From NCBI RefSeq assembly GCF_020144665.1, contig NZ_JAAHBQ010000011.1, forward strand, positions 1 to 64,000: a stretch of DNA of 64,000 nt, in the 5' to 3' direction. A program made the position numbers and the translations under genes. This DNA comes from Oscillatoria salina IIICB1. GTDB taxonomy: Bacteria > Cyanobacteriota > Cyanobacteriia > Cyanobacteriales > SIO1D9. The notes under the pieces were generated by a model, which made no database searches, was not told the origin of the DNA, and saw only the letters and a list, made by a program, of their open reading frames with translations. Shown in pieces: positions 5,371 through 40,635 of this stretch (its first letter is position 1; each line of letters opens with the position of its first letter).

Positions 5371-8199
5371 TTATTCAGCTTCACCAATTAACGTTGGAGC
5401 AGCCCAATTTTCCGGATCGGGAAACTGTTCCATTGTTGCTAACATTGCTTGTCGGAGAGCCACAGCTTTATCGCCAGTGCTATCAAGTTGTTGATAAAAC
5501 TCATTCATTAAAAAGGCTGTAGCATCGTCAGGAATTTTCCACAAAGTAACAATAATACTCGGCGTTCCTGCGGCAATAAACGAACGAGATAAACCAATTA
5601 CTCCATCACTTTTTATGTCTCCTTGACCAGTATCGCAAGCACTTAAAACAACTAATTCAGCATTCAAATTTAAGTCCAAAATTTCGCTAGAAGTTAAGAA
5701 GCCACGATCTTCGGAAGAAGGTGCAAGTGCTAAAGCCCCCGGTACTCCTAACCCGACCACATCTTCTAGCAAACCATGCGTAGCAATATGAACAATTCGC
5801 GAAGCTTCAATTGACTGTAAAACCTTGTTTTTTGTGGCTTCAACTCCTAAGATAGGGTCGGTATTCAGAAATTCAGCTATTTGTTGTGCTTCCGCTTCTG
5901 CACCTTTTAAAGGCATCAAAGTTTCGCCTGTTTCGGGATTTTTAGGCATTTCTGGATTGCCTAAAATTAGGTCGTTTATCGCCCCGGGATCGCGAGGAAA
6001 ACCAACAATTAATGAGTGTTGAGGATTAGTTTGTTTGTTTCTTTCTCGTTGTTGACGAGTTAAGTCGAGAACTTGAATTGCCGGAGCAGTTAGCAAGGTA
6101 TGCTTCTGAACTAAATATTGTTCATTTTCATCTAAAAGGGCGACAAAGGGAACTAAGAATAATTCTTTTTGGGGAATGAAAACAATTCTTTTATTTTCGT
6201 CTTGGGGAAGCAAATCGGCGATCGGATCGATCAAGATTTGATGTAGTTTTTGGAGTTCTTCCCCTGGATAGAAAGGAGGGATAAATAAGCCATCGCGAGT
6301 GTTTTTAACTAACTGAGCTAAAGTTTGATTTTCTAGGAGAGAGGAAACTTCTACATTCCGAAAAGCGACTTCTCCTGTTGGTTGAATTACCCAAGTATAA
6401 ATGTTATCGTTGACTAGGGAGTATTGAACTAAAGTTGCGTTTTGTTCTTGAGCAATTTGTTTGATTTTTTGAATGTTTGGCGGGTTAATATCGGGCGGAT
6501 TTTCGGCAAAGTTAGCAGCGAGTAATTCAATAAAAGCTCTGGCTCGTCCTCGTTCGGCGATTTCTAAAGCTGCTTCAATTTTATTTTGCGCGATCAGTGT
6601 TTCTTGGAGGTAGCTATAAGTTTGATTTTGTCTTTCTGCAAGAGAAACTTTATTTTCATCAGTTAAACCGGGACGAAGAGATTCCCAAGCTTCAACTGCG
6701 GCAAAAAGTTGTGTTTCTGCTTGAGAATATTGTTGAGATTTGAGATAAGCAACACCGATATTATTTAAAGTTGCACCAATTCCGGCGCGATCGCCAACTT
6801 CTTGACGAATAGCTAAAGCTTGTTGAAAAATAGAAATAGCTTCAGATTGCTGACCTGTTTTGGAGAGAACTTCGCCAATATGGTTGAGAATTTGGGCTTC
6901 CGTCGCGCGATCGCCGATTTCTCTGGCAATAGTTAAGGCTTGTTGCAAAACTGCGAGGGCTTTTTCCGTTTGTCCTAGTTCAGCATAAGTGACACCGAGG
7001 GTATTTAAACTTATCGCTTCACCATAGCGCTTGGTATTAGTTCCATAAGCTTCAGGAATCAAGCGAAATGTTGCTAAAGCTTCTTCAGCAGATTTTAAAG
7101 CCTTTTCGTGCTGTCCGAGTCGATTATGAACCAAAGCAAGGTTATTCAACAAAGTCGCTTGTTCTTTCGGTAACTCCCAAAAACCGCCTGCGGCTTCATC
7201 TAAACGTAGTTGAAAATTCTCATCTTGTTCCCGAACGATCGCTAAAGCTTCTTCTAGTGCAGCTAAAGCTTTTGGATACCTTCCCAAACGTTCGTAAGCA
7301 GCAGCTAATCCTGTGAGCGTAACACTAACTCCTGGTAAATCCCCTAACTCGCGACGTAGCGCTAAAGCTTGTTTGTAAGTTTCTAAAGCTTGAGGATAAT
7401 TACTCAGGTTAACATAAGTATCGCCAATGCGGTTGAGAGTATCACCTTCCTTGAGGCGATCGCTTTCTCGCTGATAAACTTCGAGAACTTGATTATAACT
7501 GTTAAGTGCGGTTTGGAAATTTCCCTCTTGAAACTGTTTTTCCGCTTGCACGTAAAGGTCTTGTCCCGCATTATCAAAAATACACTTATTTGCAGGTTGT
7601 AGGGGACAAACTTTCGACTGAATCGGATTTTGTAAGAGAGTTAAATTTCGGAGTTTTGTCAGAGTTCCCAGCGAATCGATCTCAGTAATTTGATTGCCTG
7701 TTAAGCTTAAATAAGTGAGATCGGTGAGCTTAGCCAAGGGCGTGACATCGTTAATTTGATTAAAACCCAGGACAAGATAAGTCAGGTTAGTCAGATTTGC
7801 CAGAGGAGTAACATCTGTTACCTGAGTCCCAACTAAAGTTAGATTAGTTAAATGAGTTAAACTCCCAAAAGGACTTAAATCGGTAATCGGAGGCTGAGTT
7901 AAACTTAAACTTGGATTAGCCGAAAGTAATTCTTGTGCAGCATCGCAATCAGTCGTCCCCACATATTGTAAAAGAACATCGACAGTTTGTTTGGCACTCT
8001 CAGAAAGGCGAGATCGATTTTGACACCATTCCGCAAAGGTACGATAATTTTCCGCCGCTTGGACAGACTGTTTTAGCGCACTCGATTGTCCTAAACCGAG
8101 GACTAAGAAAGTAGCGATGGCTGCGCCGACCTGGCGATACGCTAGAGTGAAGCGACGCTTAGAAAACAAGACACTCTTAATTTTATTAACTTGTGACAT
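5371..8199 (-). CDS. Exported LRR-TPR-CHAT domain protein
   Basis: A 942-residue protein with four parts. Residues 1-49 form a likely signal peptide (hydrophobic AAIATFLVLGLG, then VQA-AE). Residues about 100-200 are internalin-like leucine-rich repeats (DVTPLANLTNLTYL type). About 215-530 are TPR repeats, and about 620-940 are a CHAT peptidase-like domain. The caspase-type dyad is intact: His808 in HIATHG and Cys855 in SACDTG. CHAT proteins are clan CD proteases; some are activated by partner proteins to cut specific targets. Substrate here is unknown. It is the last gene of a six-gene minus-strand run. The signal peptide implies action in the periplasm or lumen, unlike cytoplasmic TPR-CHAT effectors. 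Confidence 0.9.
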   Translation of the reverse strand: MSQVNKIKSVLFSKRRFTLAYRQVGAAIATFLVLGLGQSSALKQSVQAAENYRTFAEWCQNRSRLSESAKQTVDVLLQYVGTTDCDAAQELLSANPSLSLTQPPITDLSPFGSLTHLTNLTLVGTQVTDVTPLANLTNLTYLVLGFNQINDVTPLAKLTDLTYLSLTGNQITEIDSLGTLTKLRNLTLLQNPIQSKVCPLQPANKCIFDNAGQDLYVQAEKQFQEGNFQTALNSYNQVLEVYQRESDRLKEGDTLNRIGDTYVNLSNYPQALETYKQALALRRELGDLPGVSVTLTGLAAAYERLGRYPKALAALEEALAIVREQDENFQLRLDEAAGGFWELPKEQATLLNNLALVHNRLGQHEKALKSAEEALATFRLIPEAYGTNTKRYGEAISLNTLGVTYAELGQTEKALAVLQQALTIAREIGDRATEAQILNHIGEVLSKTGQQSEAISIFQQALAIRQEVGDRAGIGATLNNIGVAYLKSQQYSQAETQLFAAVEAWESLRPGLTDENKVSLAERQNQTYSYLQETLIAQNKIEAALEIAERGRARAFIELLAANFAENPPDINPPNIQKIKQIAQEQNATLVQYSLVNDNIYTWVIQPTGEVAFRNVEVSSLLENQTLAQLVKNTRDGLFIPPFYPGEELQKLHQILIDPIADLLPQDENKRIVFIPQKELFLVPFVALLDENEQYLVQKHTLLTAPAIQVLDLTRQQRERNKQTNPQHSLIVGFPRDPGAINDLILGNPEMPKNPETGETLMPLKGAEAEAQQIAEFLNTDPILGVEATKNKVLQSIEASRIVHIATHGLLEDVVGLGVPGALALAPSSEDRGFLTSSEILDLNLNAELVVLSACDTGQGDIKSDGVIGLSRSFIAAGTPSIIVTLWKIPDDATAFLMNEFYQQLDSTGDKAVALRQAMLATMEQFPDPENWAAPTLIGEAE

Positions 8200-8363: not shown

Positions 8364-9029
8364 TTATTCCAATAACGGAACTTGAGTAAATTCTTCCAAG
8401 CCAACCGAATCTAAAAGTATTGGCGCTGTCTGTTCGGCATAAGCGGCATCCAAAGCATCATACCAGACACCTAAATCGGCAAAATCAGCCGCCGTTTTTC
8501 CGTCTGGATTAATATTCGGGAGGCGGTGAACCCAACCACTCACAGAAACATCTTTCGTTGCATCAGCAGGATCGCAAACTAAAGTCAAAGTCCATTCATA
8601 AACTTTTGGTTCACCATTAAGCTGTCTAGTTTCCAGAGAGACAGTTTCGGGAATTGGCAGACGCAAAATACCAGCTTGAGAATTTGGCTCTAATTCTGTG
8701 AAATAAACTTCCTTGCCACTATCATACAAAGCAAACTCTAAATAAGAAGCATTAGTTTCGGGGACATAAACAAAAAAGGTAGGATGAGCAGAAGCGGTTA
8801 CAGGCATACCAAAGTTTGTCCCAGGAATTAAAGGAGTGAGTTCAGTTTCCGCCGGAAAACACTCGCCAAAATCTCCACGGGGAGGTAAAAACACTCTCCG
8901 GGGAGGTACGGGAATACCCGACGGTTTAAAAGCTTGAGCCAGAGTGAAAGATGGCTTACCAACCAATACAGTAATTTCCAAGCCCAAAATACAAGTCAAA
9001 GATATTAACTGAGTGCGTGAGTATGGCAT
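8364..9029 (-). CDS. DUF928 protein, copy 1
   Basis: A 221-residue protein with an N-terminal signal-like segment and a DUF928 core. Conserved blocks shared with the two neighbours are the PLIPGTNFGMPVTASAHP stretch, FFVYVP, AGILRLPIPETVSLE and WYDALDAAY. DUF928 is a cyanobacterial family of unknown function, often near CHAT or TPR genes. The start is supported by GGAGT about six bases upstream. It is 164 bases before the CHAT gene, 103 after copy 2. Export is inferred from the N terminus; no catalytic residues are evident. Confidence 0.85.
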   Translation of the reverse strand: MPYSRTQLISLTCILGLEITVLVGKPSFTLAQAFKPSGIPVPPRRVFLPPRGDFGECFPAETELTPLIPGTNFGMPVTASAHPTFFVYVPETNASYLEFALYDSGKEVYFTELEPNSQAGILRLPIPETVSLETRQLNGEPKVYEWTLTLVCDPADATKDVSVSGWVHRLPNINPDGKTAADFADLGVWYDALDAAYAEQTAPILLDSVGLEEFTQVPLLE

Positions 9030-9132
9030 TTTTTACTCCTTAAATTAGGTAAAAAGAATAAATGTAAAGATTCAGATAGATAATTTCCAGAGACGCTGGC
9101 GCTACCACACCAATCGCCACTTTCAACTAGAG

Positions 9133-9882
9133 TTAATTTAACAAAGGAACTCGTTGAAATCGTTCTAGCCCCACCTCATCTAAAAGCTTGGAGGCTGTAC
9201 CTTCGCGATAAGCCGCAGCTAAAGCATCATACCAAATGCCTACATTAGCAAAATCTACGGCTGTTCTGCCACGAGGATGAACATCTGCACTACGGTGAAC
9301 CCAACCACCAACAAATAAATCTTGGGCGCGATCGCTCTCGTCGCAAACTACGGTTAAAAACCATTGATAAATTTTCGGTTTCCCGTTAACTTTCCCTGCT
9401 TGCAAAGAGACTGTTGGGGGAACCTGAAGCCGCAAAATACCAGGTTGAGCAGTTGGTTGCAGTTGCAGCTTATAAAGTTCGCGGCGATCGTCATACAAAG
9501 TAAACTCGAACTTAGAAGCATTTGTGCGCGGCACGTACACAAAAAAACTAGGATGAGCGGAAACTGTCAGAGGCAAACCAAACTCTGAATTAGGAATTAA
9601 AGCAACTAAACTAGTTTCTCCCACTACACAACTCATTCTTGTTTGCGGAGTCCGAGGTCGTCTGAGCCGAAAAATACTTCTCGGTAAACGGGCGCGAGGA
9701 GGCGGAAAAGGTAAACGAGCAGGTACAGGAATACCAGATGGTTTAAAAGTTTGAGCAAGAAGAAAATCTGCTTCGCTTTGGGCTTGTGCTTGTCTAGAAA
9801 AACTTACATTTACAGTAACTTGTAAGCATAACAGACAACTAACAAAGATCCACTCGATCGACTTACCCAGCGTGTAGCTCAT
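9133..9882 (-). CDS. DUF928 protein, copy 2
   Basis: At 249 residues it is the longest of the three DUF928 paralogues, because of a longer signal region and an Arg/Pro-rich linker (RLPFPPPRARLPRS) after it. The core repeats the family blocks LIPNSEFGLPLTVSAHPS, FFVYVPRTNAS, PGILRLQVP and WYDALAAAY. A cysteine pair (CVVGETSL and VVCDES) is present in all three copies, so a disulfide in an oxidising compartment is plausible. AAGGAGC precedes the ATG. Function unknown. Confidence 0.85.
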   Translation of the reverse strand: MSYTLGKSIEWIFVSCLLCLQVTVNVSFSRQAQAQSEADFLLAQTFKPSGIPVPARLPFPPPRARLPRSIFRLRRPRTPQTRMSCVVGETSLVALIPNSEFGLPLTVSAHPSFFVYVPRTNASKFEFTLYDDRRELYKLQLQPTAQPGILRLQVPPTVSLQAGKVNGKPKIYQWFLTVVCDESDRAQDLFVGGWVHRSADVHPRGRTAVDFANVGIWYDALAAAYREGTASKLLDEVGLERFQRVPLLN

Positions 9883-10034
9883 TATTTTTCCTTGCTCCTT
9901 AGCTTGTCAATAAGATATTTGTCGTGAGGGGGAAGTATGACGGGAGAAGAAGAATTAAATTGAAGTTGGAAATTGTCAAACCTCTGTCATCAATTTTCCC
10001 GAACAAGTTTCAGCTTAAATCAAATTAGTGACTG

Positions 10035-10052
10035 AGACTGCTTTGGCAGTCT
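10035..10052. other. Hairpin between DUF928 copies 3 and 2
   Basis: AGACTGC and GCAGTCT pair perfectly over 7 bp around a TTTG loop. No T-run follows on the minus strand, so it is more likely a stabiliser or processing structure in a polycistronic transcript than a full terminator. Confidence 0.55.
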
Positions 10053-10081
10053 GTAATCAAATCTGGTTGTCTCACAAAAAA

Positions 10082-10747
10082 TTATTCAACTAAAGGAATG
10101 GCACTAAATTGCTCTAAACCAACCGAATTAAGCAATACCGGAGCAGATTGTTCGGCATAAGCTGCATCCAAAGCATCGTACCACAAACCAAGCTCGGCAA
10201 AATCTGTCGCTGTTTGAGTTGCGGGAGCAATATCGGCAACACGGTGAACCCAACCATTAGCGCGCAAATCGGCAGAGCGATCGTCCTCGTCACAAACTAT
10301 ACTAAAGAACCATTGATAAACTTTTGGTTGACCATTTACTTCCCCAGCTTCGAGAGAAACTGTTTCCGGTAAGGGAAGACGCAAAATACCTGCTTGGGAG
10401 GTTGCTGGTAATTCTAGGCTATACACTTCGGTTCGACCATCAAACAAAGCAAACTCGAAGCGAGAAGCCGTTGATTGGGGTACATATATATAAAAAGCTG
10501 GATTTGCCGAAGCAGTTAAAGGCATACCAAAATCTCGCCCTGGAACTAAAGGTGTGAGTTTCAGGTCTCCAAGAGCACAATCGCCACTCGCACGAGGAGG
10601 AGGAAGTCGCCGACGTGCAGGGATTGCTGCATTACGAGAAGGTTTAAAGGCTTGGGCTAAGGTGAAAGGTTGTTCGCTAATCAAGGCAGTAAGTTGTATA
10701 CCTGCTAGTAAACTTAAAGATACTAACTTACCAGTCAAATTAGTCAT
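10082..10747 (-). CDS. DUF928 protein, copy 3
   Basis: A 221-residue DUF928 paralogue and the first of the three to be transcribed. The hydrophobic N terminus (LVSLSLLAGIQLTALI) suggests export. Core blocks are LVPGRDFGMPLTASANP, FYIYVPQST, AGILRLPLPETVSLEAG and WYDALDAAY. GGAGC lies about 13 bases before the ATG. It is 136 bases downstream of the WD40 gene. Copies 1 and 3 have the same length and look closest to each other by eye. Function unknown. Confidence 0.85.
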   Translation of the reverse strand: MTNLTGKLVSLSLLAGIQLTALISEQPFTLAQAFKPSRNAAIPARRRLPPPRASGDCALGDLKLTPLVPGRDFGMPLTASANPAFYIYVPQSTASRFEFALFDGRTEVYSLELPATSQAGILRLPLPETVSLEAGEVNGQPKVYQWFFSIVCDEDDRSADLRANGWVHRVADIAPATQTATDFAELGLWYDALDAAYAEQSAPVLLNSVGLEQFSAIPLVE

Positions 10748-10883: not shown

Positions 10884-12890
10884 CTAAGATGCCTTTTTCT
10901 TAGGAACTAAGAGCCACCAAGGAGTAGGAATTGTACGCCAGAGTTTAATCGTATGGTCGTAGCTACCACTAGCTAACATTTCTCCATCAGGACTAAACTG
11001 AACGGATCTTACTGGAGCAGCATGACCGATTAAGGTGCGTAAAAGTTCCCCATTTGGTAAATTCCAGAGTTTAATTGTATGGTCGTAGCTGCCGCTAGCT
11101 AAAAGTTTGCCATTGGGGCTAAAGGCGATCGAGTAAACAGGCTGATTATGTCCTCCTTGCTGAGGATTTGTTTCCAGGGTCAGGGGTGGTGAGTTATTTT
11201 GTAAGTTCCATAGTTTGATTGTGAGATCAAAACTACTGCTAGCGAGGGTTTTACCATCAGGACTGAAAGTAACATCTAATACTGAGTCAAAATGTTCTTC
11301 CAGACTGCGATTTAAGGAACCATCTGAGACTTTCCATAACTTAACGATCGCATCTGCACTGCCACTGGCTAAAAGTTTACTATCGGGGCTAAATTCTAGG
11401 GAGCGAATACCGAGAGAATGTCCTTCAATCGGGATTTCGCTTTCTTTTCCTTCCCGAAGATCCCAGATTTTAATTCCACCATTGTTATTACCACGGGCTA
11501 GCCAATGTCCGTCGGGACTAAAGGCAATTGTTGTCACATCAGCTTCGTGAGTAATTATTTCTTTTGGTTCGGTTTCTTCTGCTTGGAGATCCCAAATTTT
11601 AATTGTTTGGTTGGTACTGACTGTAGCTAAACGAGTACCATCGGGACTGTAAGCAACGGAACTAAATTCTATTAGTCCTTCGGGTTGCAGTTGCGGTTTT
11701 TCTTCTTGGGCTGTTTTTATATTCCAAAAGTTTACTGTATAATCATCGCCACCACTAGCAAGAATTTGCCCATCAGGGCTAAAAGCCAGCGATCGCACTT
11801 CGGCAATTCCCCCTGTAGGTTCGTCTTTACGCAGGGTAAATTTTTCGCTACCATCGGCTACATTCCAAAGCTTGATCGTGCGATCGTCGCTTGCACTGGC
11901 TAAGGTTGTACCATCGGGACTATATCTAACTGCAAATACCGAACCGTAATGTCCTTCGAGGGTTTTAATCAGTTTCCCGTTTTCGAGATTCCAAAGTCGG
12001 ATTGTATTGTCTTCGCTAGCACTAGCTAAGGTTTTACCGTCGGGACTAAAATCTATTGAACCGACAGGATTGTAATGACCTTCAATCGGTAAGGAAATTT
12101 CTCCACCTGCTTGAGTATCCCACAGTTTAATAAATCCTTGTTCGCTAGCACTAGCTAAAGTTTGACCGTCGGGACTAAAAGCTAGAGTTCTCACCCAATA
12201 ATCATGACCTTCTAAAGTGGTGGCGAGTGTAGCTTCGGCGACATTCCACAATTTAATCAGGTTATTGTCGGTACTGCTACTAGCAATTATTTGACCGTCG
12301 GGACTAAAAGCAATGCTATAAACTAAACCTCCGGTTTCAATGGTTTTGGCTTGACTAGTTTCTAGATCCCAAATTTTAATTGTCCCATCGACACTACCAC
12401 TGGCTAAAGTTTTGCCATCAGGACTAAAAGCTAGGGAAAGAACTTCTTCTTGATGTCCTTGCAGGTCGGTAATTTTTGCTCTGGTTTGAACGTCCCAAAG
12501 AGTGATGGTAAAATTGCCAGTTACACTAGCAAGAGTTTGACCGTCGGGACTGTAAACTACTGACCAAACTTCATCATAATGTTTTTCCAGAAGTTGAGCA
12601 GAATCGAGATCCAGATGCCACTGTTTTACGGTGATATCGTCGCTGATAGTAGCAAGAGTTTGACCGTCGGGACTAAAAGCGAGATCCAAAATATCGTCGT
12701 CATGTTTGAGGAATAAATCGCTAACTTCCACCAAATCGTCAAGAATGTCTGGGGTAATTGGATTTGTCCTTTTCGAGCGCGAGGCGATCGCCACAAATAA
12801 TCCGCTTAAAATAGCGATCGCTAATAAAAATCCGGCTATACTTACAGATTTTTCCCGCACAGGTTCAGCAATTGACTTGATGTTACTCAT
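10884..12890 (-). CDS. Membrane-anchored WD40 repeat protein
   Basis: A 668-residue protein. A single transmembrane segment at about residues 18-37 (AGFLLAIAILSGLFVAI) is followed by 14 WD40 repeats that I can count by their FSPDG...LASGS...IKLW pattern, enough for two seven-bladed propellers. Such propellers are scaffolds for protein binding. No enzymatic domain is fused to it. Charges flank the anchor on both sides, so the side of the membrane facing the propellers cannot be decided by eye. The gene starts 8 bases after the upstream triple-Trp repeat gene ends, so the two are almost certainly co-transcribed and translationally coupled. Confidence 0.92.
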   Translation of the reverse strand: MSNIKSIAEPVREKSVSIAGFLLAIAILSGLFVAIASRSKRTNPITPDILDDLVEVSDLFLKHDDDILDLAFSPDGQTLATISDDITVKQWHLDLDSAQLLEKHYDEVWSVVYSPDGQTLASVTGNFTITLWDVQTRAKITDLQGHQEEVLSLAFSPDGKTLASGSVDGTIKIWDLETSQAKTIETGGLVYSIAFSPDGQIIASSSTDNNLIKLWNVAEATLATTLEGHDYWVRTLAFSPDGQTLASASEQGFIKLWDTQAGGEISLPIEGHYNPVGSIDFSPDGKTLASASEDNTIRLWNLENGKLIKTLEGHYGSVFAVRYSPDGTTLASASDDRTIKLWNVADGSEKFTLRKDEPTGGIAEVRSLAFSPDGQILASGGDDYTVNFWNIKTAQEEKPQLQPEGLIEFSSVAYSPDGTRLATVSTNQTIKIWDLQAEETEPKEIITHEADVTTIAFSPDGHWLARGNNNGGIKIWDLREGKESEIPIEGHSLGIRSLEFSPDSKLLASGSADAIVKLWKVSDGSLNRSLEEHFDSVLDVTFSPDGKTLASSSFDLTIKLWNLQNNSPPLTLETNPQQGGHNQPVYSIAFSPNGKLLASGSYDHTIKLWNLPNGELLRTLIGHAAPVRSVQFSPDGEMLASGSYDHTIKLWRTIPTPWWLLVPKKKAS

Positions 12891-12898
12891 ATTTTTAT

Positions 12899-15685
12899 TT
12901 ACTCACTCGCTGACTCGGTTGCTTGGACTTGCACTTGCGCTGGTTCTGGTAACTGAGTAATTGCTAGATCCTCATTTTCTTGTTCTTCTGATTCATTAAT
13001 TTCTGCTTTAATTGCTGGAATGTCGCTATTAATCGTATGCCAAACCAAGGCGCCATCATAGAGATCGTATCCTGGTTGAGCGATCAGGCGATCGTAACAG
13101 GCTCGATAGGGAGGTGTATGAGCATAAAGTCGTGTTTGTCCGTTCAATTTTTCTTGCACGTAGCCTGCTAATTCTAAGTAACATTTTGCTTTACCTCCAT
13201 CGGCGGTTGCCGGTAAATTTTCTTCATATTGAGCCGCGCGTCGAAAAGATTCATAAGCTCGGAAAACTAAGTAAGGAACTCTGGGGTCGGGATTTTCACT
13301 TGCTTGTTCGGATTGAATTAATAAGTTTTCCGGTTCTTCATAGGGACTTTCAAAATCTACTTGCGCCCAGTAAAGTAAGCCGTAGTTGAGAGAAACTTCT
13401 TTGAGTAGTTGTCGCTGAGCTGGTACAGAAATTTGGTTTGCTTCGTTTTCGCCTAAAGTTCGCAGTCGATTCCAGGCTAGTTCCAAATAAATTTCTGCTT
13501 GTCGTAACTGTTCGACGCTTTCCATTTTGCCCGTCCAGTTAACTTGCTGTAAACCTTGTAACAAGATAACTCGACCTAAACGAATAATTGATTCGGTGTT
13601 TTCTGCTTCTAAGCCTTTTTCGTACTCGATTTGGGCTTTGTCTAACTGTCCGAGTTGTTCGTAAACTTTACCCACAGCGAGACTTAATTCGGCTTCTGCT
13701 TCTGCGGTTTCGAGAAATTTACTCGCTTGACGGTAGTTTTCTAGTGCTTGTAATAGTTCTCCTTGTCTGACTAAATGATTGCCTCGGTATTGATACCATT
13801 TTCCCAGTTTGGGTAAATTGTCGTTGATGCTATAAGCACCTAAAAATACTAAGCAAGAAAAGCCAAAGGCAGCTCGCGAGTTCCATTGGGGAGGTAAGCG
13901 TAAGGATGCTAAAACGTTTTCAATGGTTTTTTGTCCGTTTTTCGTCAATGCACCGCCAGCCCCGGCTAAAAGTGCTGCTCCCTGAGCAATTAAAGCGCCA
14001 TTTTGCAACGCATCGGCGGCAGGAACGCCTTCAACTTGCTGAAAAAATGTTTGGGTGGTGGTAGTCATAAAGGCAGCCGCAGCGCCGAGAAAACCTACCG
14101 CAGCCGCAGTCCATACCCAGTCAAACAAGGAAACTGGTTCGTCGTCGCCACCAACTAAAGTGGGTTTGAGATGCCACCACCAGTTTGCGTCTTCTCCTTT
14201 TAAACTATTACGCCATGCAGCGAGTTGATTGCCGCGAGCAATGACAAAACGTTGTTTTTTCAGTCGTCGATCTAATTCGACGATCTGACGCACTGATTTT
14301 TCTGGAGCAGAGGTTTTATCTACTTCTTCAACTTCATCGCGAGCGAGTAATACTTCTAAAACTAAATCCCAAGCAGGGTTGCGGGTTTCTTCTAAGGCGA
14401 TAAGCGCTTTTTCGTAGCGTTCGAGCGCTTGCTCGATTGGAGAGCGTTCGTCAGTTAAGCGCCACCACCAGTTATCTGCTGGTTTTAAGCTTGCTTTCCA
14501 CTCGTCTAAGAGATTATCGTCAGCGATAACTTTGGCTTGTTTGCGTAAGCGATCGTCGAGGGCGATAATTTTGGCGAGTCGTTCCATTGGGGGTTGTTTT
14601 TGACCGCTTTCGGCGACTTCGACGGCATCTCTAGCGAGGAGAACTTCTAAGAGTTCGGCTGAGGAAGGTTGGGGTGGTTCTTCGAGTTTAACTAACGCTT
14701 TTTCGTAACGGTCGATCGCTTGGTTGGGAAGGGGTTTGGGATCTGTGAGTTCCCACCACCAATAACTACTGGGAATTTCTAAACCTTGTTTCCATTCTGT
14801 TAGCATTTTGCTGACAGCGATCGCGTTTGCTTGTTTTTTTAAGCGATTATCGAGGCGAATTATGGTGACAATATCTTCGATTGGTAAAACACTGTTACCT
14901 TTTTTGGCTTTTTCTACTGCATCTCTAGCTTGCAGCATTTCTAAGAGTTGGGGACATTCGGGAGGTTGGTTAGACTCGACGGTAGCGATCGCTTTTTCGT
15001 ATTGTTCGATGGTTTGACGCAGTAAGGGTAAGGGGTTGGTGAAATCCCACCACCAGGAGGAGTTTGGTGGTTTGAGGTGGTGTTTCCAGTCTTCTAAGCG
15101 GCGATCGCGTGTCAGGGCTACTCCCAAGGCTTTTAGTTGTTCGTCTAAGGTAATGATTTCGGCAATTTTGCTTCGTTCTGGTTTTTGTTCGTTAAGAACT
15201 TCTTCGAGGCGATCGCGACTGAGGAGAACGTCAAGTAATTTTTCGGTGGGAATTCTCTCTGGATATTGTTTGGTTTTGCTTAAAGCGTGTTGATAAGCAT
15301 TTAAAGCTTGTTTTAGCAAGGAAGTTTGCGCATTATTTAAATTCCACCACCAATGAGCGGCGGGAATATTCAAATTTTCTTTCCATTCGGCTAAATTTTC
15401 GTATTCTGCGAGTTTATCACTTTGAGCTTTTAAACGAAGATCTAGTTCAATTAATTTAGCGATCGCGTTTCCTTTTGATTCTACTTCTGAGGTGCGATCG
15501 CGTTCTACCTCATCTCTGGCGAGAAAAACTTCGAGAATCTCTTCTAATGCTGGTTCCAAGGCTTTTTCCAGATTTGAGAGTGCTTTTGCGTATCGCTTCA
15601 GCGATCGCTCGAAATCTACTTTTGTCCCTACACCTGGATTTTCGGAAGTATGTTGTCCAGGATGAAAATTCAGTTTCATGTCCAT
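12899..15685 (-). CDS. Triple-tryptophan repeat protein with membrane segments and TPR
   Basis: A 928-residue protein I do not recognise as a named family. Residues about 27-505 hold five repeats of roughly 97 residues. Each has a RYEKAL helix, an LLEVLLARDEVE helix, an LDxRLKKQA helix and an EWKxxL helix, and ends in an invariant WWW at 112-114, 211-213, 309-311, 406-408 and 502-504. A hydrophobic region with two or more segments (about 523-580) and another near 604-618 follow, then TPR-like repeats (about 630-720) and a Glu/Gln-rich tail. There is no signal peptide, so the repeats probably face the cytoplasm and the TPR side depends on the number of crossings. It is the first gene of the six-gene run. 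A link to CHAT signalling is inference only. Confidence 0.85.
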   Translation of the reverse strand: MDMKLNFHPGQHTSENPGVGTKVDFERSLKRYAKALSNLEKALEPALEEILEVFLARDEVERDRTSEVESKGNAIAKLIELDLRLKAQSDKLAEYENLAEWKENLNIPAAHWWWNLNNAQTSLLKQALNAYQHALSKTKQYPERIPTEKLLDVLLSRDRLEEVLNEQKPERSKIAEIITLDEQLKALGVALTRDRRLEDWKHHLKPPNSSWWWDFTNPLPLLRQTIEQYEKAIATVESNQPPECPQLLEMLQARDAVEKAKKGNSVLPIEDIVTIIRLDNRLKKQANAIAVSKMLTEWKQGLEIPSSYWWWELTDPKPLPNQAIDRYEKALVKLEEPPQPSSAELLEVLLARDAVEVAESGQKQPPMERLAKIIALDDRLRKQAKVIADDNLLDEWKASLKPADNWWWRLTDERSPIEQALERYEKALIALEETRNPAWDLVLEVLLARDEVEEVDKTSAPEKSVRQIVELDRRLKKQRFVIARGNQLAAWRNSLKGEDANWWWHLKPTLVGGDDEPVSLFDWVWTAAAVGFLGAAAAFMTTTTQTFFQQVEGVPAADALQNGALIAQGAALLAGAGGALTKNGQKTIENVLASLRLPPQWNSRAAFGFSCLVFLGAYSINDNLPKLGKWYQYRGNHLVRQGELLQALENYRQASKFLETAEAEAELSLAVGKVYEQLGQLDKAQIEYEKGLEAENTESIIRLGRVILLQGLQQVNWTGKMESVEQLRQAEIYLELAWNRLRTLGENEANQISVPAQRQLLKEVSLNYGLLYWAQVDFESPYEEPENLLIQSEQASENPDPRVPYLVFRAYESFRRAAQYEENLPATADGGKAKCYLELAGYVQEKLNGQTRLYAHTPPYRACYDRLIAQPGYDLYDGALVWHTINSDIPAIKAEINESEEQENEDLAITQLPEPAQVQVQATESASE

Positions 15686-34980: not shown

Positions 34981-37900
34981 ATGAAATCGATAATTGCACA
35001 GTATAAGGGTTTACAGACAAGCACTACAACAATTGAAAGCCCTTTAGACGATCGAGATACAGGAATGCTAGTAGTCATCGATAAAAAGATACAAGACTAC
35101 GAAATCCTGGCAAAAGGAGGACAAAATGGCGCAAAAGTCTTTATTCTAGACGATAAAGATGACGGCGTTAAACAAATTACAGCATTACTGCAAAACCAAA
35201 CTGTCCAGAGTTTACATATTGTTACTCATGGTGCATCTGGTTGCTTATTTTTAGGTGACAGTAAACTCAGCTTAGAAACCCTCGATAATTACTTTACAGA
35301 ATTAGAAAATTGGGCAAAAACACTTCATGGCAGCTCATTATTAATTTATGGTTGTAACGTTGCCCAAAAATCCAGAGGTCAAAATTTTGTCGAACAGTTA
35401 AGTAGAATAACTGGAGCAAAAATTGCCGCAGCTTCTCATCCCGTAGGTAGTAGATCTCAAGGCGGAAACTGGAACTTAGATTACACCACTGGAAAAATTA
35501 CCTCACCCCTAGCATTCACCGACGAAGTTAGATTGGCTTACCAGGGAATTTTTCCTGTAGATATTGCTGATGGAGACGTTGCTGGCTTAATCGCCGCCAT
35601 TGAAGCAATTAATAACGGTACTGCTGCCGATAATATCATCAACCTAGCTACAGGCGGTACATACACCTTTGACGGTACAACCACTACCTTATTTCCCGAT
35701 ATCCCTGATGGTAACGCAGCGATCGATAACGGCGTTTCCGCACTACCACCGATTACCAGCGATGTCGTAATTAATGGTAACGGAGCGACTATCGCTAGAG
35801 ATCCCGCCGCTTCAGCTTTCCGTCTCTTTTATATTGACGGTACCAGCACTCCTGCGGGTAATCTCAGCTTAGATAACGTTACGCTTACAGGTGGTAGAGC
35901 CGAAGTACCTAGCGGTGGTGCGGGTACTTTTCCCGTAGCCGAAGACGACGGTGGTGCGATTTTCATTACTAACGGTGCTACTGCGACAATTACTAATAGC
36001 ATCCTTAGCGATAACTCCTCGGCTGATGATGGTGGGGCGATTCTCAACCAAGGTACTCTCAGCGTTGAGAATACCGATTTTCTCAATAATACAGCCGAAG
36101 GAGACGATGGTATTGAAGATGGTGGTGGTGCTATTGAAAATGATGGCGCTTTGGGTGAAGGTATTCTCAATCTTACTAACAGTGACTTTAGCGGTAATAC
36201 TGCTGCTGACGAAGGTGGGGCGATTCGCAACCGCAACAACGCTCAAATAATCGATGGTGGGAACAATACTTTTAACGATAATAATCCCTCTAATGTGGAA
36301 ATTATCGGCGATATGAATCCCGCAGCGAACGATCCCCCGTTTAATTCCGTCCCTCCAGCCCAAACAACCGATCTCAGTACACCGCTACTTTTTCAAACGG
36401 ATGCAGCTACCGATACAGGTAACGATCTCCAAATTTTAGACCCTGATGCCGATCCTGCTGTCGATCCCTTTGAAGTTACACTGGCAGTAGATTCGGGGAC
36501 TTTAACTCTTCCCAATACTACTGGGTTAACCTTTACTACCGGAGATGGTACTGACGATCCGACGCTAACTTTTACAGGTACTCTCAACGATATCAATGCG
36601 GCGCTTGATGGTCTAGCCTTTAATCCGGCTGCTGCGGGTGTGGCTACTTTGACTGTAACTAGCGATGACGGTGCATTGACTGATACAGATACAGTTGAGA
36701 TTACTGTTACTGGGGCTGGTGGTGTGTTTGATGCGGTTGATGATACGGCTACTACTGCACTGGATACACCTGTTAATATCGATGTCTTGGCTAATGATAC
36801 TGACGATGATGCCGATCCTAGTGACTTAGAAGTAGATCCGGCTAGTATCGCAGGTGTGATTAACGGGACAGCAGTAGTTGATGCTGATGGGACAATTTTA
36901 TACACACCTAATACTGGTTTTGTTGGCTCTGAAGACTTTACTTATGATTTAATTGACGCTGATGGTAATCGCGATACCGCTACGGTGACAGTAACAGTTG
37001 GTGGGACGACAGGTGGTGTGTTTGATGCGGTTGATGATACGGCTACTACTGCACTGGATACACCTGTTAATATCGATGTCTTGGCTAATGATACTGACGA
37101 TGATGCCGATCCTAGCGACTTAGAAGTAGATCCGGCTAGTATCGCAGGTGTGGTTAATGGTACAGCAGTAGTTGATGCTGATGGAACAATTTTATATACT
37201 CCGGATGCAGATTTTGTTGGCTCTGAAGACTTTACTTATGATTTAATTGACGCTGATGGTAATCGCGATACCGCTACAGTGACAGTAACAGTTGGTGGGA
37301 CGACAGGTGGTGTGTTTGATGCGGTTGATGATACGGCTACTACTGCACTGGATACACCTGTTAATATTGATGTCTTGGCTAATGATACTGACGATGATGC
37401 CGATCCTAGCGACTTAGAAGTAGATCCGGCTAGTATCGCAGGTGTGGTTAATGGTACAGCAGTAGTTGATGCTGATGGGACAATTTTATACACACCTAAT
37501 ACTGGTTTTGTTGGCTCTGAAGACTTTACTTATGATTTAATTGACGCTGATGGTAATCGCGATACCGCTACAGTGACAGTAACAGTTGGTGGGACGACAG
37601 GTGGTGTGTTTGATGCGGTTGATGATACGGCTACTACTGCACTGGATACACCTGTTAATATTGATGTCTTGGCTAATGATACTGACGATGATGCCGATCC
37701 TAGCGACTTAGAAGTAGATCCGGCTAGTATCGCAGGTGTGGTTAATGGTACAGCAGTAGTTGATGCTGATGGAACAATTTTATATACTCCGGATGCAGAT
37801 TTTGTTGGCGTTGAAGACTTTACTTATGATTTAATTGACGCTGATGGTAATCGCGATACTGCTACGGTGACAGTAACAGTTGGTGAAGGTGTAGTTGGTG

Positions 37901-40635
37901 GTGGACTCGATGCAATTGATGACACAGTATCAACTACCATCGACACACCGATCGATATTCCACTTCTCAATAATGACCAACTTGGTGATGGTTTAGCAGA
38001 TCTCGCGATCGATGAGGCTAGTATTGTTAACGGAACAGCAATTGTCAACGATAATGGTACTCCGGCTGACTTTTCTGACGACTTTATCAGCTACACTCCC
38101 GATGCAGGTTTTACTGGGGTAGAAGACTTTACTTATACCCTCACGGATATTAACGGTAATACTGATACGGCGACGATTACTGTTAACGTAGGTGGTGTAG
38201 TGGTCGAACCACTCGATGCGATCGATGATACAGTGACAACTGAGATTGATACACCAGTAGAAATCGATGTTTTGGGTAATGATACTCCTACCGAAGGACA
38301 ACTACAAATTGCGATCGCTGAAGATGAAGTTGTCAATGGAACCGCAGTAGTCAATAATAATGGTACTCCTGATGATTTATCTGACGACTTTATCGTTTAT
38401 ACTCCTGATGCAGGTTTTGAGGGTGTAGAAGACTTTGGTTATACGATTACCGATGCTGATGGTAACACTGATACTGCCCGAATTACAGTGGAAATTGGTA
38501 ATCAACTACAAGCGGAAGATGATTTAGCTACAGCCGATCCGAATACACCAGTCGAAATTGATGTTCTTGCTAATGATACCGATCCTGAAGGAGATCCGCT
38601 ACAAATTAGCATTCTGACAGATCCTACCAATGGTACGGCTGTAGTTAATGATAACGGTACTCCTGACGATCTCTCTGATGACTTTGTTACCTATACACCC
38701 AATGCTGATTTTAATGGTGTTGATAGCTTTACTTATCAAGTAGATGACGGTAATGGTAACACTGACACGGCTACCGTGAATGTAATCGTTGAAGAAGCTA
38801 ACCAACCACCAGAAATTCTTGCCCCAGAAGTGGTGGAAATCGACGAAGATACAGAAGGGGGAATTGTCTTTACTGGAAACGATTTAACGATTTCGATTAC
38901 CGATCCTGATGTTCTCGACGACGCGATCGGTGTAGAATTGGTGGCGACGGATGGAAGTTTGAGTCTTGGCGATCCTAGCGGATTAATTTTCTTTAATGGG
39001 GATGATACGAGTAACCTCTTGCTGACTGGGACGCTGGATGCGATTAACTCAGCTTTGGATGGTTTAACTTTCACTCCCTTTGCTGACTTCGCTGGTGAGA
39101 CGACGATTGAAATTTTTGCTAACGATTTCGGTAATAATGGTGCAGGTGGTCCGCTAACCGATAATGAAGTCATCGAAATTACTGTTAATCCCATCAATGA
39201 TGCACCAATAAATCTGTTTAACGGTGAATCTCTCGACGACACTACGCTTCCAGAGTTTACCAGTACGGAAACTAATCCTGCGATTGTCTTTTCTAGCGAG
39301 AATGGAAATCAACTCTCAATTACTGATGTTGACGCATCGCCAGATCCAGTTACAGTAACATTAGCGGCAGAAAATGGCATTCTCGATTTAGGTGGTGATA
39401 CCACCGGATTAATTTCTTCTGGTGGAGATGGTACGAATCAAATTAGTTTGACTGGTACCGTTGAAGAGATTAACACAGCTTTAGATGGTTTAACTTATAC
39501 ACCAAATGCTGATTTCAGTGGCGAAGATAGCATTACGATTACTACCAATGACTTAGGAAATAATGGTGCAGGTGGTGCGTTATCTGATACCGATGCGATC
39601 GCGATTACGGTTGAAGAAGGAACAGTGACAGAACCACCAAGCCTCACTCGCAACAATAATAACGTTTTTGCGATCGGTGGCAATCAAGAAAATGTCAATC
39701 TCAAATTTACCTTGAATGAAGCGCTTTCTGATGCAGCGAATGTCAATGAGGTTGGTTTCTATCGCGTTGATGACGAGTCTGGTACGATTAACGGGATTTC
39801 ACCAGGAGACTTACGCTATACTACCGCAGCCCTGAGCAATGGAGAAGTAATTTTCTCTGCTTTATCGAACGAATCTCCAGATTTCTTTATCGATCCTGAA
39901 CGTATTATCGAGTTTAGCGGTGGGGATAATATCGGTTTCTATCTGGTTTCTGATGGTTCTACAGATGAAGTTTTAGCCGGACAAGTACCTTCAAGTCAAG
40001 TTTACTTCGGTACGGTCGATTTAACTCAGCTAGAGGTTTCTGACTTGGGAACTAATGCGTTTACAATCGGTTGGGAAGATTTACCTGTTAGCGGTAGCGG
40101 TACGGAAAATGACTTTGATGATGTTTTGTTTGAGGTTGAGTTAACTACCGAAGATACGCGATCGGGAACTGATATTCAAGGGCTACGAGAAATCGTTGAT
40201 TTGCGGGAAATCGATGTTGACGGTGATGGTAATGTCGATACTTCGGTTTCCGCTATCTTCCAAGCTTTCGGTGAATCTGGTTTGACTAATCGCGGTGGTT
40301 TGTATCAGATTGATAATCTTCTTGGTAGTGTTGGTGGTGTTAATCCCGGAGATGCAGGTTATGCTCAAGCTGCTTTATCAGCGAGTGTGGTAGAGTTTGC
40401 TGAAGGTGAGACTCTTTCAGCTAATCTCACTGGTGGTCAACTTTATGCACCTTATCTGATTTCTACCGATGGACAGACGACGAATACTTACTTTGCTTTC
40501 TTAGAAGCTAATCCGGGTAGTGCTGACCAAGTTCGTTTGTTGGGAGATAATACTTTTGGTTTCGAGGATTTAATCGCTAATGATGCTGGTTTCGATGCTT
40601 CTTACGATGATTTTGGTTTCCAAGTGGTTATTTAA
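34981..40635 (+). CDS. Giant DUF4347 surface protein with tandem Ig-like repeats
   Basis: An 1884-residue acidic protein. Residues about 30-185 are a DUF4347 domain with HIVTHG (His83) and IYGCN (Cys125). A right-handed-helix-like region (about 190-450) follows, then a run of cadherin/Ig-like repeats with the DVLANDTD motif. Four of these, encoded at 36718-37893, are near-identical 98-residue units, followed by diverged copies. The C terminus holds two DUF4114-like units (VGFYRVDDESG...GWEDLPVSG...FDDVLFEV). No classical signal peptide is visible; such proteins usually leave by type I secretion. A role in adhesion or surface coat is inferred. GGAGTAAGG lies just before the ATG. Confidence 0.88.
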   Translation: MKSIIAQYKGLQTSTTTIESPLDDRDTGMLVVIDKKIQDYEILAKGGQNGAKVFILDDKDDGVKQITALLQNQTVQSLHIVTHGASGCLFLGDSKLSLETLDNYFTELENWAKTLHGSSLLIYGCNVAQKSRGQNFVEQLSRITGAKIAAASHPVGSRSQGGNWNLDYTTGKITSPLAFTDEVRLAYQGIFPVDIADGDVAGLIAAIEAINNGTAADNIINLATGGTYTFDGTTTTLFPDIPDGNAAIDNGVSALPPITSDVVINGNGATIARDPAASAFRLFYIDGTSTPAGNLSLDNVTLTGGRAEVPSGGAGTFPVAEDDGGAIFITNGATATITNSILSDNSSADDGGAILNQGTLSVENTDFLNNTAEGDDGIEDGGGAIENDGALGEGILNLTNSDFSGNTAADEGGAIRNRNNAQIIDGGNNTFNDNNPSNVEIIGDMNPAANDPPFNSVPPAQTTDLSTPLLFQTDAATDTGNDLQILDPDADPAVDPFEVTLAVDSGTLTLPNTTGLTFTTGDGTDDPTLTFTGTLNDINAALDGLAFNPAAAGVATLTVTSDDGALTDTDTVEITVTGAGGVFDAVDDTATTALDTPVNIDVLANDTDDDADPSDLEVDPASIAGVINGTAVVDADGTILYTPNTGFVGSEDFTYDLIDADGNRDTATVTVTVGGTTGGVFDAVDDTATTALDTPVNIDVLANDTDDDADPSDLEVDPASIAGVVNGTAVVDADGTILYTPDADFVGSEDFTYDLIDADGNRDTATVTVTVGGTTGGVFDAVDDTATTALDTPVNIDVLANDTDDDADPSDLEVDPASIAGVVNGTAVVDADGTILYTPNTGFVGSEDFTYDLIDADGNRDTATVTVTVGGTTGGVFDAVDDTATTALDTPVNIDVLANDTDDDADPSDLEVDPASIAGVVNGTAVVDADGTILYTPDADFVGVEDFTYDLIDADGNRDTATVTVTVGEGVVGGGLDAIDDTVSTTIDTPIDIPLLNNDQLGDGLADLAIDEASIVNGTAIVNDNGTPADFSDDFISYTPDAGFTGVEDFTYTLTDINGNTDTATITVNVGGVVVEPLDAIDDTVTTEIDTPVEIDVLGNDTPTEGQLQIAIAEDEVVNGTAVVNNNGTPDDLSDDFIVYTPDAGFEGVEDFGYTITDADGNTDTARITVEIGNQLQAEDDLATADPNTPVEIDVLANDTDPEGDPLQISILTDPTNGTAVVNDNGTPDDLSDDFVTYTPNADFNGVDSFTYQVDDGNGNTDTATVNVIVEEANQPPEILAPEVVEIDEDTEGGIVFTGNDLTISITDPDVLDDAIGVELVATDGSLSLGDPSGLIFFNGDDTSNLLLTGTLDAINSALDGLTFTPFADFAGETTIEIFANDFGNNGAGGPLTDNEVIEITVNPINDAPINLFNGESLDDTTLPEFTSTETNPAIVFSSENGNQLSITDVDASPDPVTVTLAAENGILDLGGDTTGLISSGGDGTNQISLTGTVEEINTALDGLTYTPNADFSGEDSITITTNDLGNNGAGGALSDTDAIAITVEEGTVTEPPSLTRNNNNVFAIGGNQENVNLKFTLNEALSDAANVNEVGFYRVDDESGTINGISPGDLRYTTAALSNGEVIFSALSNESPDFFIDPERIIEFSGGDNIGFYLVSDGSTDEVLAGQVPSSQVYFGTVDLTQLEVSDLGTNAFTIGWEDLPVSGSGTENDFDDVLFEVELTTEDTRSGTDIQGLREIVDLREIDVDGDGNVDTSVSAIFQAFGESGLTNRGGLYQIDNLLGSVGGVNPGDAGYAQAALSASVVEFAEGETLSANLTGGQLYAPYLISTDGQTTNTYFAFLEANPGSADQVRLLGDNTFGFEDLIANDAGFDASYDDFGFQVVI
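36718..37893 (+). repeat. Four 294-bp tandem repeats inside the surface protein gene
   Basis: Units start at about 36718, 37012, 37306 and 37600, and the same TTTGATGCGG site recurs exactly every 294 bases. Differences between units are few and mostly silent. The fourth unit changes SEDF to VEDF near its end. The near identity implies recent duplication or gene conversion. Confidence 0.95.

Follow-up and report, generated by a model that had tools for sequence, protein, structure and literature searches.

Five tandem copies of an unnamed, WWW-ending domain in a cyanobacterial membrane protein

Introduction

What is a helical unit that ends in three consecutive tryptophans, and what does a membrane protein do with five such units in a row? 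The question is raised by one open reading frame in a 64,000-nucleotide stretch of the Oscillatoria salina IIICB1 genome (NZ_JAAHBQ010000011.1, positions 1 to 64,000; hereafter, the window). The frame (12899-15685, minus strand) encodes a cyanobacterial membrane protein of 928 residues. Working from the letters and their translations, the original prediction described an unrecognised repeat of about 97 residues and suggested that its invariant tryptophans make a repeated contact with a membrane surface or a ligand. Here, we describe the unit in the window protein, its family, its neighbours and its relatives in other architectures, and weigh what it may do.

Results

The WWW motifs of the window protein fall at residues 112, 211, 309, 406 and 502, with spacings of 99, 98, 97 and 96, exactly as first described, and each closes one of five helical units of about 97 residues. 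On the minus strand, copy 1 (residues ~22-114) lies at 15344..15622, copy 2 (115-213) at 15047..15343, copy 3 (214-311) at 14753..15046, copy 4 (312-408), the most conserved, at 14462..14752, and copy 5 (409-504), which adjoins the membrane segment, at 14174..14461; all five were matched by a hidden Markov model of the unit (E 5e-30 for copy 1). None of 20,000 shuffles of residues 1-510 gave more than three WWW. Fifteen columns are invariant across the five units, including Y, A, L, R-D, E, L-D, L, L, W, L and WWW. The series of helix strings said to precede each WWW held as a pattern and failed letter for letter; in unit 2, for example, the strings read AYQHAL, LLDVLLSRDRLE, LDEQLKALG and DWKHHL. 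Pairwise identity among the units was 29-49% in protein and 42-61% in DNA, and the duplication is therefore neither recent nor a product of assembly. On these DNA identities, and given a five-copy orthologue in another genome, an assembly artefact or recent duplication was rejected. Confinement of the repeat to the window genome was also considered and rejected, since homologues occur in other cyanobacterial genomes.

The unit had been reported to match no named domain, and profile scans of Pfam, NCBIfam, PADLOC and PDB sequences agreed. Pfam and NCBIfam gave no match over their curated cut-offs in residues 1-510 of the window protein, PADLOC gave no match to its WWW units, and PDB sequences gave no significant match to them. 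When 43 diverse unit copies were scanned singly, no Pfam family reached E 0.1 in more than two of them, and none of the EAD or Death-like Pfam models matched the WWW domain in these copies. The unit is therefore unnamed in the libraries searched. A weak PHROG match to the window protein (phrog_33261, E 1e-4, residues 249-294) led to a family of unknown function. Fold searches against the PDB, run with models that included the tetratricopeptide repeat (TPR) part of the protein, listed TPR structures almost throughout and hardly probed the WWW unit, and word searches of the open-access literature found no description of a WWW domain. Nor is the unit a TPR: it is about 97 residues long with three main helices and some short ones, and residues 1-510 hold no 34-residue TPR motif.

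Across the cyanobacterial class, the unit profile matched 93 of 390 genomes, about a quarter, in 50 of 159 genera, a genome count that takes in a stand-alone form of the WWW domain described below. When the model also contained the TPR part, an order-wide search matched all genomes and gave no usable count. Each of the 110 complete units that the profile recovered ends in WWW. The R, the D and all three W never vary across the 43 diverse units, where Y, L, D, L and L exceed 90%; these 43 had been excised by their WWW, and the 110 profile-found units supply the independent count of that motif. Among 75 distinct homologues, a few of them cut by contig ends, 58 carried one unit, seven carried two, three carried three, five carried four and two carried five. 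The label "repeat" accordingly suits the window protein better than the family, in which the unit is usually a single domain. The commonest architecture is one WWW unit followed by a membrane segment and a TPR part, and the window genome also encodes a paralogue of this kind. Plasmid homologues are named "tetratricopeptide repeat protein" in RefSeq, a name that is silent on the WWW domain. In a SBLK cyanobacterial metagenome-assembled genome, adjacent genes (L033:5123-11872) encode three, three and two WWW units. As a separate observation, a WWW-membrane-TPR gene lies near an eCIS_core protein on a contig labelled gammaproteobacterial (L042:1211-7691), by either transfer or mis-binning.

A tree of the region that follows the final WWW was built by a quick method, with SH-aLRT support only. 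On it, the state "more than one unit" required two changes, against a shuffle average of 14.7, and none of 500 shuffles was as low. L114 and L135 stood apart as a pair, and the other multi-unit proteins formed one main clade; the long-branched L118 was placed unsurely. With 56% identity over 878 residues, the nearest relative of the window protein is one from another GTDB family (G342, L099/L106) that likewise carries five units. Its units 2, 3, 4 and 5 best match their positional counterparts, at 46, 62, 80 and 58% identity, and unit 1 matches unit 1 weakly, at 25%. Because this five-unit orthologue matches mostly unit for unit, the array predates the split of the two GTDB families. Each array position has its own history, with unit 4 the most constrained, and copies 2-5 have been positionally stable since that split. 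The WWW domain is real, old, widespread and unnamed, and its tandem form in the window is unusual.

After the array comes a three-helix membrane segment (residues ~520-622; 13820..14128, minus strand), recognised from predicted helices, hydropathy and a charge count over 68 homologues, and then a TPR superhelix (residues ~624-886; 13028..13816, minus strand). The C-terminal part counts as TPR by both profile and fold: TPR_12 matched residues 634-693 at E 6e-6, just short of the gathering score in the window protein but exceeding it in homologues, and the superhelix matched TPR structures with Z ~14. All TPR profile matches of the window protein fall at residues 634-704. The model of the full-length protein was of low confidence (pLDDT 68, pTM 0.42), and that of a 372-residue construct of unit 5, membrane segment and TPR part had a mean pLDDT of 84. 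In construct numbering, unit 5 was mostly at pLDDT 84-96, with main helices at 8-25, 31-46 and 54-69 besides short ones, and its WWW lay in a short helix at 94-97 with pLDDT about 85. Helices 112-140, 149-169 and 191-214 fit the three predicted membrane helices, with pLDDT below 50 around the second and its preceding loop.

Over 68 homologues, the net charge was +2.0 for the loop between membrane helices 2 and 3 and -0.6 for the first loop. By the positive-inside rule, these charges would put the WWW units on the cytosolic side of the membrane and leave the TPR part outside, and this is the topology that we predict. At least two cysteines were present in the TPR part of all 68 homologues; in the window protein, C835 and C863 (13097..13183, minus strand) form a conserved pair, in columns at least 90% conserved among 15 homologues. 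Such conserved cysteines suit an oxidising compartment.

This layout bears on what the tryptophans do. Tryptophans favour membrane interfaces, and the last WWW lies about 16 residues before the first membrane helix, as it does in single-copy relatives. Both points would suit a membrane-interface or ligand-contact motif that keeps the units on the inner membrane surface, with tandem copies strengthening attachment or binding a small molecule or pigment. However, the other four of the five WWW motifs lie about 100-400 residues from the membrane helices, and a protein with three such helices needs little further attachment. Alternatively, WWW could be a structural clasp that closes the three-helix unit, the array being a rigid spacer that sets how far another cytosolic component lies from the membrane and has no docking partner. 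The good confidence with which WWW is predicted inside the unit, the invariance of WWW, R and D, as in a core, and the range of one to five copies would all be compatible with a clasp. Against it, conservation is copy-specific (80% for copy 4 and 25% for copy 1 between orthologues), which a mere spacer would not need.

The gene after the window gene, starting 8 bp downstream, encodes a 668-residue WD40 propeller protein anchored in the membrane at its N-terminus (10884..12890, minus strand; PF00400, E 3e-150). Four other multi-copy loci likewise have a WD40 gene as the following one, namely L106 (five units), L107 (four), L043 (two) and L103 (two), and no WD40 neighbour was present at the four-unit Nostoc and Calothrix loci or at the SBLK locus. 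Beyond the WD40 gene of the window on the same strand, with gaps of ~100-200 bp, lie three tandem DUF928 paralogues with signal-peptide-like N-termini (8364..10747, minus strand; PF06051, E 3e-27 to 2e-29) and a gene for an LRR-TPR-CHAT protein that also starts with a signal-peptide-like stretch (5371..8199, minus strand; PF12770, E 6e-67); a link between these genes and the WWW system is no more than possible. Elsewhere in the window, 34981-40635 encodes a 1884-residue protein in which DUF4347 and DUF4114 accompany many Ig/cadherin-like repeats; it is probably a large adhesin that is exported.

The search for CHAT or caspase association that the original prediction recommended was positive. 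A CHAT gene lay within four genes of the WWW gene in 13 of 66 loci, compared with about two or three expected by rough arithmetic; the CHAT background was 396 matches in 20 genomes totalling ~104 Mb, with 4-50 per genome. A protein of ~360 residues, usually exported and sometimes containing TPRs, was encoded no more than four genes away in 23 of 66 loci. In one large clade, it is the immediate downstream neighbour of many single-copy genes, often together with a CHAT gene. A CHAT neighbour was absent beside many single-copy genes of the other clades. A FecR domain in the exported partner and a TonB-like C-terminal domain in long homologues, both suspected by eye, were dropped, the former having no Pfam match and the latter no Pfam support. 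Several CHAT or neighbouring proteins bore signal peptides or a TPS secretion domain (PF05860, E 1e-41 and 2e-56), and the partners therefore probably act outside the cytosol. The gene neighbours point to transmembrane signalling by CHAT/caspase-type systems. We also observed, two genes downstream of a WWW gene, a CHAT protein with a TPS secretion domain at its start and DUF4347 as well (L038:3146-7060).

In one homologue, a caspase domain (Peptidase_C14, E 2e-19) is fused in one frame to a WWW unit, a membrane segment and a TPR part, in that order (L138:678-2894, plus strand). Its caspase scored 104 bits against the NCBIfam model caspase_w_EACC1, below the 140-bit cut-off. This N-terminal caspase fusion was seen once, and 14 more long homologues had no further N-terminal fusions. 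Next to the fusion gene lie another gene for a caspase and one for a protein related to the exported TPR-type partner.

The WWW domain also occurs as a protein of ~104 residues, without a membrane segment, that keeps R-D, D and WWW. A comparison of its profile with that of the unit aligned 82 of 104 columns (probability 96.7%, E 4e-10). The gene overlaps an upstream gene of ~127 residues through ATGA at all four junctions read, in the pairs L133:3850-4817, L122:4233-4933, L124:3650-4350 and L139:3860-4554. The upstream family was found in 5 of 386 genomes, with a stand-alone WWW gene adjoining it in all five. The pair thus consists of two small overlapping genes with a sporadic distribution, and in layout it resembles toxin-antitoxin pairs, the upstream product being a putative toxin. 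Pfam, NCBIfam, PHROGs and the PDB gave no convincing match for that product; our impression is that it is somewhat like BECR-type nucleases. A search for phage or viral relatives of the stand-alone form found none. At L121:3379-5479, short membrane ORFs that closely resemble one another (MWLNFLALLPST...) form an array with a stand-alone WWW gene inside it.

These forms bear on each of the alternatives. The membrane-surface contact first suggested for WWW becomes less likely because the stand-alone relatives, which have no membrane segment, retain the motif along with R and D; the tryptophans more likely belong to the fold or to a protein interface than to a membrane anchor, and we consider the membrane-interface or ligand-contact reading unlikely. 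The clasp and spacer reading seems to us similarly doubtful, since a WWW protein that stands alone and is encoded together with a partner points to binding. A further alternative is that WWW is an antitoxin or immunity domain: the stand-alone protein would neutralise the upstream product, and the membrane forms would restrain a caspase, or a toxic enzyme akin to that product, until signalled from outside. The ATGA overlap, the constant pairing with the upstream gene and the L138 caspase fusion fit such a role; however, the upstream protein matches nothing convincingly in the libraries named above, its nuclease likeness is an impression, and no upstream-type gene was recognised near the membrane forms. 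We judge an antitoxin role for the whole family to be distinctly improbable.

Discussion

We tentatively favour, as a reading somewhat short of probable, a transmembrane scaffold with cytosolic WWW docking adaptors and a TPR part outside that holds a partner, the tandem copies making it multivalent. The TPR superhelix, lying outside the cytosol, would hold an exported or membrane-anchored partner, which here would be the WD40 protein and in many single-copy relatives the exported TPR-type and CHAT proteins. The three membrane helices would link the outside TPR part with the cytosol, in which one to five WWW units would dock a cytosolic effector or regulator, tandem copies rendering that docking multivalent. 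We infer that the WWW domain docks proteins in signalling, with copy number setting avidity; the caspase fusion and the stand-alone proteins, whose genes overlap a second gene, would count toward such adaptor-like use. A bolder version, to which we give only a small chance, is that WWW constitutes an undescribed cyanobacterial adaptor family, Death-like in role, whose caspase-fused forms, and tandem forms on transmembrane TPR receptors, couple exported CHAT or WD40 sensors to cytosolic effectors and whose stand-alone form is the antitoxin in a toxin system of two genes.

Cyanobacterial CHAT, caspase, WD40 and TPR proteins are numerous, and their wiring is largely obscure. The WWW domain, which apparently sits between exported sensors and the cytosol, offers a handle on that wiring, and its stand-alone form reduces the question to one small protein and so makes it testable.

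Several known systems invite comparison. The C-terminal part of the window protein is like tetratricopeptide repeat proteins, whereas the ~97-residue WWW unit is not TPR. DdvA, a transmembrane anti-sigma factor (PDB 8rw5, 8rot) and so also a membrane protein, ranked third when the full-length model was searched with Foldseek (E 6e-3), but the match was weak (rmsd 39 Å, TM-score 0.18) and the likeness is probably one of shared helical repeats only.

By description, the nearest studied protein in layout is HetF of Anabaena, in which CHAT is followed by one membrane helix and TPRs (PMC8406250). HetF has a caspase-type domain, a membrane segment and TPRs in one chain, and the L138 homologue has the same order of parts. 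The two differ in that HetF has one membrane segment and no WWW domain described, whereas the window protein has three membrane helices; the window protein gave no CHAT match, and CHAT is encoded in a separate gene.

Neither the window protein nor the neighbouring genes scanned gave an EACC1 or caspase match. EACC1 has a single membrane helix, in contrast to the three predicted in the window protein, and in those parts of PMC7159879 and PMC8195603 that word searches brought up, no passage on a WWW-like domain was seen. Nearest in concept are the EACC1-caspase and effector-associated-domain systems, in which adaptor-type domains work with caspase effectors in multicellular bacteria (PMC7159879, PMC8195603).
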